A stretch of 26,438 nt of DNA, from positions 1 through 26,438 of the IMG/VR virus record IMGVR_UViG_3300025889_000824; one strand, written 5' to 3'. The position numbers were made by a program, and so were the translations under genes. Numbering within the stretch: the stretch's first letter is position 1; each line of letters starts with the position of its first letter. Positions 9,834-13,636 of this stretch are shown here, piece after piece. Source of the DNA: a virus. Below the pieces are notes generated by a model, which made no database searches, was not told the DNA's origin, and saw only the letters and a list, made by a program, of their open reading frames with translations.

Positions 9834-10338
9834 TTTTTAGATGTTCTTTTGCTCGATTGAGCGATTTTGAAAGCGTTGTTAAGCTGATCCCCGTTCCTTC
9901 TCGGATGTCTTTCAGCGTGTTTCCATTGTACCAGAGAACGCAAACGATCCGATCAAACTCGTTCATCTCGTCGAGTTTTTCGTTCATAAAGCGTATCGCG
10001 AGCGTCACGTCGGGATGTTCGGAGCTTTCGTAGAGTTCGCGATATATGCTCTCGCGATGCTTCTGCTCCATTATGATCGGTCGCTTGTGACGTTGATAGT
10101 ATCGCGAGCTTCCGCTGTGCCAGCTCATCCGAAGCGAAGCGATGACATATCTCCGTATCTCCGCTGTCTTTCCTTCTCCTCGGTTACATATCCCGTCGGG
10201 AACTCCTCGAGTCATCAGATCAGTCACTACGTCGTGCAGGAGCTCTCTTCCGTCTCCCTGGACGATTGTATTCGCGACTGATAATAGATCGCTGTAATTA
10301 TTCTGAAGATAGACCGAGAACGCGCTCGCGGAAGTCAT
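9775..10338 (-). CDS. Sigma-70/ECF-like transcription factor (187 aa)
   Basis: The size and layout fit a minimal sigma-like factor. An N-terminal helical region (ANTIVQGDGRELLHDVVTDLMTRG) corresponds to region 2. It is joined to a C-terminal helix-turn-helix (FDRIVCVLWYNGNTLKDIREGTGISLTTLSKSLNRAKEHLK, residues ~128-168) like region 4. It could redirect host RNA polymerase to late phage promoters, which would fit the scarcity of recognisable host promoters ahead of the structural genes. Region 2 motifs are weak, so a DNA-binding late regulator without sigma activity is the alternative. It overlaps the nuclease gene upstream (41 bp) and the 112-aa gene downstream (59 bp). Confidence 0.65.
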   Translation of the reverse strand: MTSASAFSVYLQNNYSDLLSVANTIVQGDGRELLHDVVTDLMTRGVPDGICNRGEGKTAEIRRYVIASLRMSWHSGSSRYYQRHKRPIIMEQKHRESIYRELYESSEHPDVTLAIRFMNEKLDEMNEFDRIVCVLWYNGNTLKDIREGTGISLTTLSKSLNRAKEHLKNEVERSWRQYRESNSSDWY

Positions 10339-10684
10339 CGTACATCTCTAAAAGTTCGGGAGTGCTGAATTTACGAATCTGATTCGATTTCTGCACTATT
10401 TCGTCAGCAAGTCCGGATCTTTCTTCGTTCAGCCGCTGCCCAAAAACGTACTGCTGTCCCCCGTTTCGCATGTTACATCCCGCACACTGGGGGCGGACAT
10501 TGTCTTCGTCCCATCTGACGCTGTACTTCGCCCGACTTTGGAAGTGCCCCGCTTGCATTTCGGAGACAGATTTTACGACTCCGCATGTATAACAATCGAC
10601 TTTGCCCGCTTTCGCGTACTTGAGTCGGATGTACTTCGAGAAAATGCTGTCGAGCTTTCGTACGACTGTGCTACGCTTTGTCAC
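10298..10684 (-). CDS. ninG: NinG/Rap-like recombination nuclease (128 aa)
   Basis: The protein carries a zinc/HNH-like core: C31-x2-C34, then AGHFQSR (H47), then VRPQCAGCNMRNGG with C67 and C70, followed by YVFGQRL. This matches the NinG/Rap family of lambdoid phages, which cleave branched recombination intermediates. The upstream segment LDSIFSKYIRLKYA is also characteristic. The start is GTG at 10684, overlapping the previous gene by 14 bp. Its neighbours (methyltransferase, replication genes) fit a recombination or replication role. It is shorter than lambda NinG but the core is complete. Confidence 0.75.
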   Translation of the reverse strand: MTKRSTVVRKLDSIFSKYIRLKYAKAGKVDCYTCGVVKSVSEMQAGHFQSRAKYSVRWDEDNVRPQCAGCNMRNGGQQYVFGQRLNEERSGLADEIVQKSNQIRKFSTPELLEMYDDFRERVLGLSSE

Positions 10685-11033
10685 TTTTCGGACTTCCTTT
10701 AACTCCTCCCTTTGGGCCTACTTCAGCGAGCTCAATCTCTCCGAGTTCTCTCAGCTTGTTTCGACTCCAGGCGAGAGCCGCTGGCCCTCCCCAAAGAAGA
10801 TAGCTGATCGTCCCGCACTTTGTCGTACTGTTCGGATCATAGTTCTTCTGATGTCGTGAGAGGAAGAGATACATTTTTTTGATGACTTCGAGCGATACAT
10901 TTCCGCCAGATGCGAGAACTTGAGCTCTCTGTTTTCCGACGATTGTTGCACACTTGTTCCCCTGCTTCTCGTTCAGCTCGATTCCTCGTCTTGCGTTGTT
11001 TCGGACACGCTCTCCGTAATCATTGAAGCTCAT
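10671..11033 (-). CDS. Conserved phage domain protein, function unknown (120 aa)
   Basis: The protein contains RNNARRGIELNEKQGNKCAT, VGKQRAQVLASGG, VIKKMYLFLSRH, then KCGTISYLLWGGPAALAW and a helix. I recall this as a recurrent domain in Bacteroidetes phages, sometimes attached to other phage proteins, with two conserved Cys (here about C28 and C73). It lies between the methyltransferase and the NinG-like nuclease and overlaps both by 14 bp. No catalytic pattern is obvious. The two Cys and the Gly-rich WGG loop suggest a compact fold. Function unknown. Confidence 0.7.
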   Translation of the reverse strand: MSFNDYGERVRNNARRGIELNEKQGNKCATIVGKQRAQVLASGGNVSLEVIKKMYLFLSRHQKNYDPNSTTKCGTISYLLWGGPAALAWSRNKLRELGEIELAEVGPKGGVKGSPKSDKA

Positions 11034-11985
11034 TGTTCTCGATTTTTTGTATCACTTGGAACAATTCAAGTGCTACCTGTGGAACAATAGCGTTCCCGTA
11101 TGCCTTTATCGTTTCGTTTCGCCATTTAGAAAAGGAGATTCCGTCCAGGTCACGGGGAAGCCCATCATCTCCGCTACAAATCGGGGATTCAGTTGGGAAG
11201 TCTTTCCACCAGCTTCGCGTATTCGCTTTGGGATGCTGTCTTGATTCCTCTTTCCTGTGTTCTTTCCCGGGTGATCGCAAGCGTTCGGTGTTGGTAATAG
11301 CGTGCTGGTATTGATTGCTGCCCAGTGATTGAGCTCGCTGTCTCTCATCTTTCCATCCTTCCTGGGTGCTGTCGTTCCCCTGTTCGAACAACTGGCTGTT
11401 GGTGTTGGGATCAGACGACCGATTAAACTGCTTCTGCCCGCTTGACTCTTTGGCAGTGTTGAGTTTTGACCATCCTGCGCCAGTGGAGTTGGGAGTATCT
11501 CGGAACGCACAGATCCAGATCCTGTCTCTTCTATGGGGTGCATTTTTGGCGAGAGCTGGAAGTATAAACGATTCGACTCCGTAGCCCTCAGACTCCAAAT
11601 CAGAGCACACTTCGTCGAGTACCAGTCCCCCGTTCCAATTAGTAAGCCCGCGAACATTCTCCCCCAGGACGTACTTCGGGCGAATCTCTCGTACTGCTCT
11701 AAACATCTCCGACCAGAGATATCTGTCGTCGTCTGTTCCTTTTCTTTTTCCTGCTGTGCTGAAGGGCTGACAGGGGAAGCCCCCTGTGAGCACATCGATT
11801 CTATCTCTGTAAGAAGTGAAATCTGTCTGCTTGATGTCATGTAAGCTATCTGATTTAGGGAAGTGATATTTTAAAACTTGACGACCGAAATCGTTCCATT
11901 CACAGTGAAAGACATTGTTCCAGCCCATCCATTGAGCCGCGAGATCGAATCCACCGATGCCCGAGAAGAGAGATCCGTGATTCAT
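11020..11985 (-). CDS. dcm: C5-cytosine DNA methyltransferase (321 aa)
   Basis: The protein transfers a methyl group from AdoMet to cytosine C5. Motif I LFSGIGGFDLA is at 6-16, motif IV GGFPCQPFS at 68-76 with nucleophile C72, motif VI ENV at 109-111, motif VIII APHRRDRIWI at 149-158, and motif X YGNAIVPQVA at 296-305. No restriction enzyme lies nearby, so it is an orphan methylase, probably protecting phage DNA from host nucleases. The variable region at ~163-258 is unusually polar and repetitive (S/T/N/Q/K-rich), and a second long frame runs through this part. ATG 11985 overlaps the helicase-loader stop as ATGA. The target sequence cannot be predicted. Confidence 0.95.
   Translation of the reverse strand: MNHGSLFSGIGGFDLAAQWMGWNNVFHCEWNDFGRQVLKYHFPKSDSLHDIKQTDFTSYRDRIDVLTGGFPCQPFSTAGKRKGTDDDRYLWSEMFRAVREIRPKYVLGENVRGLTNWNGGLVLDEVCSDLESEGYGVESFILPALAKNAPHRRDRIWICAFRDTPNSTGAGWSKLNTAKESSGQKQFNRSSDPNTNSQLFEQGNDSTQEGWKDERQRAQSLGSNQYQHAITNTERLRSPGKEHRKEESRQHPKANTRSWWKDFPTESPICSGDDGLPRDLDGISFSKWRNETIKAYGNAIVPQVALELFQVIQKIENNELQ
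11106..11840 (-). CDS. Nested +1-frame ORF inside the methyltransferase gene (244 aa), tentative
   Basis: A 735-bp frame from ATG 11840 to stop 11106 lies entirely inside the methyltransferase gene, same strand, +1 frame. It does not look random. It has a region with GTGDWYSTKCALIW and SNRLYFQLSPKM, three spaced copies of a (I/L)(I/L)PTPxA pattern, and a C-terminus SQLNPRFVAEMMGFPVTW. I recall similar sequences in phage databases both as separate ORFs and in methylase-related proteins. Some of the resemblance is forced by conserved methylase codons in the other frame. There is no good ribosome-binding site at 11840. This is a candidate, not an established gene. Confidence 0.3.
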   Translation of the reverse strand: MTSSRQISLLTEIESMCSQGASPVSPSAQQEKEKEQTTTDISGRRCLEQYERFARSTSWGRMFAGLLIGTGDWYSTKCALIWSLRATESNRLYFQLSPKMHPIEETGSGSVRSEILPTPLAQDGQNSTLPKSQAGRSSLIGRLIPTPTASCSNRGTTAPRKDGKMRDSELNHWAAINTSTLLPTPNACDHPGKNTGKRNQDSIPKRIREAGGKTSQLNPRFVAEMMGFPVTWTESPFLNGETKR

Positions 11986-12701
11986 ACTTTCCGATAATCA
12001 ACGCCCCCGAGAGCGTACATATTGAACATTTCCCAGAGACGAGATTCAACTCTCGGTCCGTACACATCGCTGATCTCTTCGATGCTGAGATTTGTCGTGA
12101 GGAGAGTGATCCCGCTCTGATTGAAGTACCGCTTCTCGATGAGATCAGACATGATCGGAGCGTCCGTTTTCTTTGCGAATCGTGCGCTTCTCTCTCTGCC
12201 TACATCGTCAAAATACCACGAGCCGAGCTCGAATCTTTTGAGTGAGTTTGCGTCATTGTAAGCGTCGACGATGTGCATCGCTGTCGTCTGCTTGGCTCCA
12301 ATCACTCGAGCGAGTGCCCGCATGATCGTCGTCTTTCCTACTCCGTATCTGCCCAGGATCAGAATGCCTTTTTTCAGACTGAGCTTGTTTATCGATCTCC
12401 CTTCTGCGCTTTCGCTGAGATCGTATCCCGTCTGACAGAAGTTGTGATCTTGAGCTGCATAGTAAGCGAGAGAGTTCAGCAGCTTTTGATTTGCGGGCAC
12501 ATACTTAAACTCTGGACACGCTCTCTGTATGTGATCCGCGAGCATGCGCTTTGCTTCTGATACGTTGATCTGTTTTTTGACTTTGGGCTTTCGAACTTCT
12601 TTGAGCTGCTTTCTGTATTCGCGCTCTGCGTCGGAGATTTTTCTTGGTGGGCTCTTGCGCTGATCCCAGCGATCAGATACCGTATTTCCTGAGTGAATCA
12701 T
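11982..12701 (-). CDS. DnaC-like helicase loader, AAA+ ATPase (239 aa)
   Basis: The protein would load the host replicative helicase at the phage origin. Walker A GRYGVGKT is at 117-124, Walker B WYFDDVG at 162-168, sensor 1 LLTTNLS with N204, and an arginine region YGPRVESRLWEM at 214-225 (arginine finger/sensor 2). The N-terminal ~60 residues are basic and helical, suited to helicase binding. ATG 12701 follows an AGAGAAAAAG leader and overlaps the upstream initiator gene by 29 bp. The pairing of a winged-helix initiator and a DnaC-like protein mirrors lambda O/P-type systems. Confidence 0.9.
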   Translation of the reverse strand: MIHSGNTVSDRWDQRKSPPRKISDAEREYRKQLKEVRKPKVKKQINVSEAKRMLADHIQRACPEFKYVPANQKLLNSLAYYAAQDHNFCQTGYDLSESAEGRSINKLSLKKGILILGRYGVGKTTIMRALARVIGAKQTTAMHIVDAYNDANSLKRFELGSWYFDDVGRERSARFAKKTDAPIMSDLIEKRYFNQSGITLLTTNLSIEEISDVYGPRVESRLWEMFNMYALGGVDYRKV

Positions 12702-13281
12702 CTTTTTCTCTGTTTTCGTCTTTGAACCAGACTCGACGCATCGTGCTTTTCCAGTCTTTCACTGTGTTTCCGAACTTGTCGAGCCATTGTCGCTCGCTAT
12801 AATAGTCAAATGCTCTTTCACCGATCTCTTTTCTGTATCCTTCACTCTTGAAGAAGGAAGTCACTTCCTCTTTCGTGGGGGTACGTTTTGTACCCATACT
12901 ACGTCTATCAATAGAGATAGAAGAAGATATATTATGTATATGGGTACGTTTTGTACCCCCTTCTGAAAGATTTGTACCCCCTTCTGAACAAAATTTACCC
13001 AGCTTGTAAAAGGATCGAGTGTCGCCAGGAAGCGGGAGATGAGCCGGAGCTTTGACCAAAAATCCCCCCTCTACGAGCTTTCCGATCGCTCTCTTGATCG
13101 TCGGTCTGCTCCAGAAAGGAAACTCTTTCTCCCATGCACTATTGCTTCGATGTATCCAATACTCGCCCCCGATCGATCTTTTCTCTTCGATCAACTTAGA
13201 GTGAATGTATCGACATCGAGACAGTATAACAGCGCAGGGAACTCCGAGCTCTTCCGCTTCTTTGTTATCAAACGTCTGCAT
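12673..13281 (-). CDS. Winged-helix replication initiator, phage O/DnaD-like (202 aa)
   Basis: I choose ATG 13281 (MQTFDNKEAEELGV) rather than 13347, because the longer form would overlap the upstream gene by 80 bp. The N-terminal domain (to about residue 95) has a winged-helix pattern, NSAWEKEFPFWSRPTIKRAIGKLVEGGFL. A low-complexity linker follows, with SEGGT and KRT repeated, encoded by iteron-like DNA. The C-terminal domain PTKEEVTSFFKSEGY ... AFDYYSERQWLDKFG ... DWKSTMRRVW is the tail commonly seen in phage replication organisers. It likely binds the origin and recruits the helicase loader encoded next. Confidence 0.8.
   Translation of the reverse strand: MQTFDNKEAEELGVPCAVILSRCRYIHSKLIEEKRSIGGEYWIHRSNSAWEKEFPFWSRPTIKRAIGKLVEGGFLVKAPAHLPLPGDTRSFYKLGKFCSEGGTNLSEGGTKRTHIHNISSSISIDRRSMGTKRTPTKEEVTSFFKSEGYRKEIGERAFDYYSERQWLDKFGNTVKDWKSTMRRVWFKDENREKDDSLRKYGI
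12879..12988. other. Candidate replication origin: iterons and AT-rich segment inside the initiator gene
   Basis: Two identical 17-bp inverted repeats GGGTAC-GTTTT-GTACCC lie at 12879-12895 and 12942-12958. Between them is a 46-bp AT-rich stretch (12896-12941). Overlapping the second is an 18-bp direct repeat TTTGTACCCCCTTCTGAA at 12950-12967 and 12971-12988, period 21 bp, with a possible degenerate third copy ending near 13000. The array falls in the linker between the two initiator domains. This is the same layout as lambda ori inside gene O, but no function is shown. Confidence 0.5.
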
Positions 13282-13636
13282 GAATCCAGCCCTGTCTTTT
13301 GCAATAGGCAGACGCAATATCGTATATGTACTCGAGATCCGGATCATACTTCCGATTTTTGATACGACGATATGCGTGAAGAACTGTCGCGTGATCTCTG
13401 CCGAAGTAGTCTCCGATACAGGCTAAAGTTTGCCCAGTGACTTCTTTACATAGTACCATCGCTGTTTGACGAGCGCGGACGACTTCCTGATTCCGATTCC
13501 GCTTGTACACATACGGCTTTATCACCAGCGTCGGAAAGTGCATCTGTATCTCATCGATGATCCCCTTCGCGACTTCTTCGACTGGTGGGCTCGTTTGCCG
13601 TCGACAGATCATCAAATGAATCTGAGCGCGGCTCAT
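13268..13636 (-). CDS. Stand-alone DnaA domain IV-like DNA-binding protein (122 aa)
   Basis: Residues ~48-93 carry the DnaA C-terminal DNA-binding domain: RARQTAMVLCKEVTGQTLACIGDYFGRDHATVLHA. The last ten residues are the DnaA signature, one residue short of the usual GGRDHSTVLHA. There is no AAA+ domain, so it can bind DnaA-box-like DNA but not hydrolyse ATP. The first ~45 residues (helix plus a strand, IIDEIQMHFPTLVIKPYVYKR) have no clear match. It is encoded directly before the replication initiator and overlaps the upstream gene as ATGA. Possible roles are origin binding, competition with host DnaA, or transcriptional control. Confidence 0.85.
   Translation of the reverse strand: MSRAQIHLMICRRQTSPPVEEVAKGIIDEIQMHFPTLVIKPYVYKRNRNQEVVRARQTAMVLCKEVTGQTLACIGDYFGRDHATVLHAYRRIKNRKYDPDLEYIYDIASAYCKRQGWIHADV

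Follow-up and report, generated by a model that had tools for sequence, protein, structure and literature searches.

A viral cytosine-C5 DNA methyltransferase gene contains a conserved gene in its +1 frame that probably encodes the specificity subunit of a two-subunit enzyme

The window, by which we mean the whole 26,438-base stretch of virus DNA that was analyzed and which has terminase, portal-like, capsid-like and protease genes among its genes, contains a cytosine-C5 DNA methyltransferase (Dcm) gene with a second gene nested inside it. The overlap is real, selection acts on both frames and the nested ORF is a genuine gene. Very probably the product of the locus is a cytosine-C5 DNA methyltransferase of two subunits, in which a beta specificity subunit is overprinted on the alpha catalytic subunit. 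Alpha would provide AdoMet binding, catalysis and motif X, and beta, with an ATG of its own and read at +1 relative to alpha, would provide the target-recognition region and motif IX. Most likely a single mRNA gives rise to both polypeptides; the recognition segment and motif IX of beta would complete the small domain of alpha to form one active enzyme, and the heterodimer would methylate a specific cytosine site in the phage DNA, most likely resulting in evasion of host restriction. Translation of beta, heterodimer formation, methylation of DNA, its target and an anti-restriction role are steps which we infer.

The nested locus and selection on both frames

The alpha gene (11020 to 11985, minus strand; 321 aa) lies within a tight series of minus-strand genes, sharing 4 bases with the upstream ATPase-like gene (11982-12701) and 14 bases with the gene that follows downstream (10671-11033). 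As nearby genes match NinG (10298-10684, minus strand; 4e-11) and the DnaA DNA-binding domain (13268-13636, minus strand; 3e-18), the methyltransferase sits in a phage replication and recombination block. The beta ORF (11106 to 11840, minus strand; 244 codons) is located wholly within the alpha ORF at a +1 offset. Its ATG start codon (11838-11840) falls on the codons of alpha His49-Asp50, relatives mostly starting at about alpha codon 48-49, and its stop codon (11106-11108) is placed where alpha motif X begins. On inspection of the sequence no typical Shine-Dalgarno element was evident upstream of beta.

A first-pass annotation of this DNA had reported such a 244-codon frame nested in the methyltransferase, with three [IL][IL]PTPxA units and further ordered segments, opposite a polar, low-complexity stretch at residues 163-258 of the Dcm frame. 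Each of these observations was confirmed. The frame is present at the position given above and begins with ATG, the three units are found at 11478-11498, 11394-11414 and 11280-11300, and the other quoted sequences are GTGDWYSTKCALIW and, close to the C terminus, LNPRFVAEMMGFPVTW. The Dcm stretch is indeed polar and of low complexity, and AlphaFold2 predicted alpha residues 173-259 to be disordered, with a pLDDT of approximately 30.

The same annotation had considered either a real overlapping gene or a pattern forced by codon use in the methylase. Were Dcm codon use to hold the +1 frame open, with the nested ORF untranslated, the low number of stops expected by chance in that frame would be in its favor, as 2.9 are expected in +1 across the overlap of the window compared with 16.0 in +2. 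When synonymous codons of the window Dcm were permuted, however, just 2% of the shuffled sequences were free of stops in +1. Stops at normal frequency in the +1 frames of homologues, which had been named as evidence against a gene, were not what was found: 82 loci contained 0 stops in +1 in total, versus approximately 4.0 expected per locus, and 1509 stops in +2, in line with the shuffled expectation. Six Dcm genes which had no beta match carried 2-6 stops in their +1 frame.

Since codon position 3 of alpha is codon position 2 of beta, true coding should suppress synonymous changes in alpha. Differences at 4-fold synonymous sites of alpha were 0.62-0.67 before and after the overlap and 0.32-0.39 inside it. 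For pairs with less than 60% identity the values were 0.66 before, 0.39 inside and 0.67 after the overlap, and for pairs with 75-90% identity they were 0.31, 0.11 and 0.28, respectively. When each sequence was used once (39 disjoint pairs), 35 of the 39 were lower inside the overlap, with a mean of 0.22 compared with 0.45 outside (Wilcoxon p ~1e-9). With synonymous variation of Dcm suppressed inside the overlap only, and the same +1 ORF conserved at upwards of 150 loci from viruses and bacteria, the codon-use explanation was rejected as having next to no probability, and the nested frame is supported as a gene.

Constraint was also split by region. Over motifs IV-VIII that of alpha itself predominates, and across the variable polar region of alpha (residues 163-258; 11212-11499, minus strand) it is mainly in the beta frame. 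Among close pairs, amino acid identity over this region was 0.73 in the +1 frame versus 0.61 in the Dcm frame, and alpha codon position 1, which corresponds to beta position 3, was the most variable. The polar, low-complexity stretch of alpha is therefore largely a shadow of beta.

Distribution of methyltransferase motifs between alpha and beta

Alpha matched PF00145 in Pfam (5e-47), TIGR00675 dcm in NCBIfam (6e-40) and phrog_363 in PHROGs. Its first 166 residues matched M.HhaI by sequence (2e-24), and the model of its core superposed on both M.HhaI and M.HaeIII by fold comparison. Motifs I-VIII and X are present, and possession of motifs I, IV (PC), VI (ENV), VIII and X places alpha in the C5-cytosine DNA methyltransferases (PF00145). 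On the minus strand, motif I (SLFSGIGGFDLA; AdoMet binding) is at 11938-11973, motif IV (GGFPCQPFS), which includes the catalytic Cys72, at 11758-11784, motif VI (ENVRG) at 11647-11661, motif VIII (NAPHRRDRIW) at 11515-11544 and motif X (KAYGNAIVPQVA) at 11071-11106. Motifs I, VI and VIII were assigned from the alignment of relatives, motifs I and IV also from alignment with M.HhaI; motif IV is invariant in relatives, as are G297, N298, V301, P302 and Q303 of motif X. Monomeric enzymes have motif IX and a folded target-recognition domain (TRD) in the same chain, whereas in alpha these are missing and motif IX is found in the +1 frame instead. The alpha profile was alignable to monomeric Dcms over residues 1-166 only.

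Beta matched phrog_1008, labelled DNA methyltransferase (PHROGs, E 7e-27). No family was found for it in Pfam or NCBIfam, and neither phmmer nor a profile search against the PDB produced a match. AlphaFold2 modelling of beta alone, for which four rows from phage records were left out of the input alignment, gave a pLDDT of only 57 overall, and comparison of this model with PDB folds returned no match below E 0.001, a result which is little informative for so weak a model. Assignment of beta as the TRD therefore rests on sequence profiles.

The conserved blocks of beta are a segment containing W73 and W82, a set of at most three PTPxA units, and a C-terminal end, SQLNPRFVAEMMGFPxxWTxLPF, which hardly varies. 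The first of these (beta residues 41-100; 11541-11720, minus strand) lies over alpha motifs IV-VIII, contains invariant columns, has a pLDDT of 77-84 for most of its length and is unmatched in monomeric Dcms. The PTPxA units, ILPTPLA (beta 115-121), LIPTPTA (beta 143-149) and LLPTPNA (beta 181-187), all on the minus strand and in the order of the positions given above, are of a type which occurs in frame in monomeric Dcms. Motif IX (SQLNPRFVAEMMGFPVTWT, beta 215-233; 11142-11198, minus strand) is nearly invariant and was aligned with the monomer motif IX by hhalign. Beta residues 115-236 as a whole aligned with the in-frame PTP/TRD segment and motif IX of monomeric actinophage Dcms with a probability of 97.2% and an E value of 3e-11 (hhalign); the monomer segment in turn aligned in register to M.HhaI 269-308, the motif IX-X region, with a weak score of -2.2 bits. 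By these comparisons beta carries the predicted recognition segment and motif IX, and alpha is without them. The first-pass annotation had proposed either a methylase partner or an anti-restriction protein, and the partner is favored because beta has the motif IX and target-recognition part that is missing from the Dcm frame. The first 105 residues of beta have no counterpart in monomers and overlie the catalytic domain of alpha, which suggests that the N-terminal part of beta arose by overprinting.

Two other accounts of a translated beta frame were weighed. Beta could be a genuine product of the overlap with a function of its own, such as anti-restriction or anti-defence, and not a methyltransferase subunit. 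The length and conservation of the N-terminal region around W73 and W82 would fit such a protein, as would some Bacteroides and phage loci in which alpha has in-frame stops and beta is open. We nevertheless consider it improbable, as the segment held by beta is the one which alpha lacks and monomers have in frame, an EcoHK31I-like pair of identical layout occurs in E. coli, and among more than 250 loci hardly any beta match was found away from a Dcm ORF, L239 alone being listed as separate. Alternatively, ribosomes could change frame by +1 once past alpha motif VIII, so that TRD and motif IX would form part of one methyltransferase chain; the beta frame does come straight after alpha motif VIII, and monomeric relatives show that order in one frame. 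Such a fused product would however be without motif X unless the ribosomes shifted back, beta has a conserved start of its own near alpha codon 48 and is conserved ahead of the point of fusion as well, and M.EcoHK31I is described as two polypeptides. Fusion was rejected on these grounds and is the less probable of the two.

Comparison with known methyltransferases

A nested layout has a biochemical precedent in one E. coli enzyme, and the best reading of the sequences is that the window pair would be a variant of this M.EcoHK31I architecture. M.EcoHK31I is a two-polypeptide m5C methyltransferase of E. coli with the target YGGCCR; Lee et al. in 1995 reportedly described an alpha of 309 aa whose gene encloses, in an alternative frame, that of a 176-aa beta. 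When E. coli genomes were searched by blastn with the window Dcm nothing was found, and an EcoHK31I-like E. coli locus was located by a search with a proteobacterial relative (L289). In E. coli S43 (L304) a 309-aa Dcm contains an ATG-started +1 nested ORF of exactly 176 aa, ending in RRMLPSEYERLQGFPENWT / RRMLPSEYERLQGFPENWTLIDSEQ, a textbook motif IX, ahead of alpha motif X. The convergent neighbor has a counterpart, at a 91% identical locus, which is annotated as a NotI-family restriction endonuclease. From these sizes and the adjoining NotI-family endonuclease, we take the S43 locus to be EcoHK31I or a close relative. It was matched in 86 of 5,426 E. coli genomes, and in the two feature tables read (L304 and L305) alpha alone is annotated. 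Between S43 and its 91% relative, none of the 88 4-fold sites of alpha within the overlap had changed, compared with 5 of the 55 beyond it.

As in the M.EcoHK31I type, the large polypeptide of the window pair bears motifs I-VIII and X, and the small one ends with motif IX, just before the motif X of alpha; as at the S43 locus, the small polypeptide is encoded in +1 inside the large gene, and the two alphas share 38% identity over the catalytic core. The window beta differs in starting at alpha codon 48 compared with 104 in S43, in its length of 244 aa compared with 176 aa, with an extra N-terminal part, and in its PTPxA-type recognition region, and unlike at the S43 locus no restriction enzyme gene was recognized alongside the window pair. 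The match between the window and E. coli betas by hhalign was weak (68%, E 5e-5, 59 columns), with motif IX outside the alignment. The two-subunit m5C methyltransferase M.AquI (target CYCGRG) resembles the window pair in dividing the catalytic core and recognition part between two polypeptides. Its small subunit carries motifs IX and X together with half of the variable region, whereas the window keeps motif X on alpha, and the small gene of the window is, unlike that of M.AquI, wholly inside the large gene. For M.EcoHK31I, an account in PMC3404938 gives motifs I-VIII and X to the large and motif IX to the small polypeptide, and places the predicted TRD on alpha, while in the window the putative TRD is placed on beta.

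Monomeric Dcms of actinophages, such as gp71 of Mycobacterium phage RitaG, have a catalytic core like the window alpha, and LLPTPxAxD units and an NPRLxxAFxEWMMGWPxGW motif IX as in the window beta. They differ in using a single frame, with the recognition segment and motif IX between motifs VIII and X of one polypeptide. The number of LLPTPxAxD units varies among them (L169-L240), in the manner of a modular recognition repeat which expands and contracts. At some high-GC actinophage loci beta-profile matches occurred both in frame and in +1; these served as monomer references only and not as evidence of nesting. Paenibacillus larvae phages of the Firmicutes have pairs, such as BN12_62 / BN12_63, of an alpha with a nested +1 beta as in the window, although this beta is only approximately 30% identical to that of the window. 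Both BN12 products are annotated as DNA-cytosine methyltransferase, and the function of the overlap is unstated in the record.

Occurrence of the nested pair and irregular alpha frames

In a search of IMG/VR with beta, at least 591 of the 599 stretches listed encoded a relative. The relative overlapped a Dcm ORF in the same +1 frame in all 80 of the IMG/VR loci examined, its start in most cases lying near alpha codon 48. At three IMG/VR loci (L006, L055 and L060) beta is open and has no ATG, GTG or TTG at the usual start; this region reads GATATAACAA, and another start codon may serve. Of 73 loci on bacterial and archaeal genome contigs, nearly all from Bacteroidota, approximately 67 had the +1 pair, and most of the others were frame-broken. 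Within the class of a Burkholderiaceae locus a match was obtained in 12 of 369 sampled genomes, and in the loci read from these genomes beta once more lay at +1 within a Dcm ORF, the alphas spanning 237 to more than 400 aa. The first-pass annotation had pointed to close relatives of the nested protein in phage data, and relatives were indeed found both in IMG/VR and in named phage records, the latter including 48 Paenibacillus phages. The nested arrangement is widespread and mostly unannotated. In Porphyromonas phage 018a (L085) the nested frame is annotated as a hypothetical protein and the annotation of alpha is missing.

Long, fully nested same-strand genes in prokaryotes are usually dismissed as artefacts. 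Here selection on two frames is directly measurable and a definite function can be predicted for the nested product, making the locus a testable case of overprinting within the catalytic domain of an enzyme. If beta is required, many annotated monomeric methyltransferases would be catalytically incomplete as annotated, and expression or specificity assignment from alpha alone would fail. The findings also turn M.EcoHK31I from a single biochemical curiosity into a member of a broad family. We regard the chances as evenly balanced that a large cross-phylum class of phage and bacterial 'Dcm' genes are nested heterodimer genes, with the +1 reading as specificity subunit and its N-terminal part formed de novo by overprinting; few fully nested coding pairs in prokaryotes would match these in length and breadth of conservation, and annotation would have overlooked them. 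A limited literature search for such an overlap beyond EcoHK31I found nothing, which leaves an earlier description possible.

Irregular alpha frames were observed in several relatives. On Bacteroides and Parabacteroides genome contigs (L134-L137 and L139-L141) alpha has in-frame TGA codons with beta fully open, several of the TGA codons being at conserved Trp positions (LAAE*MGW, DFRG*RG, FSR*RQ). In the part of alpha ahead of beta, 18 codons differ synonymously and 6 non-synonymously between L136 and L139, with the TGA retained in both, so that their alpha seems to be under selection still; the TGA codons might be explained by readthrough, by reinitiation at TGAATG or by a recent decay which these loci share. 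In two IMG/VR loci (L019 near 2993 and L070 near 3068) a 6-base insertion places TAA right before the alpha catalytic Cys (GGFP*xCQPYS), and the beta frame is open through the insertion. A proteobacterial genome (L301) has an alpha ORF at 104-2132 of 676 aa, with an intein-like insertion seemingly just after the catalytic PC (SCPC-FPEGTLVLTKRGYIPIESVKVGDNVLTHKGRW...) and a +1 beta-like ORF downstream of it.
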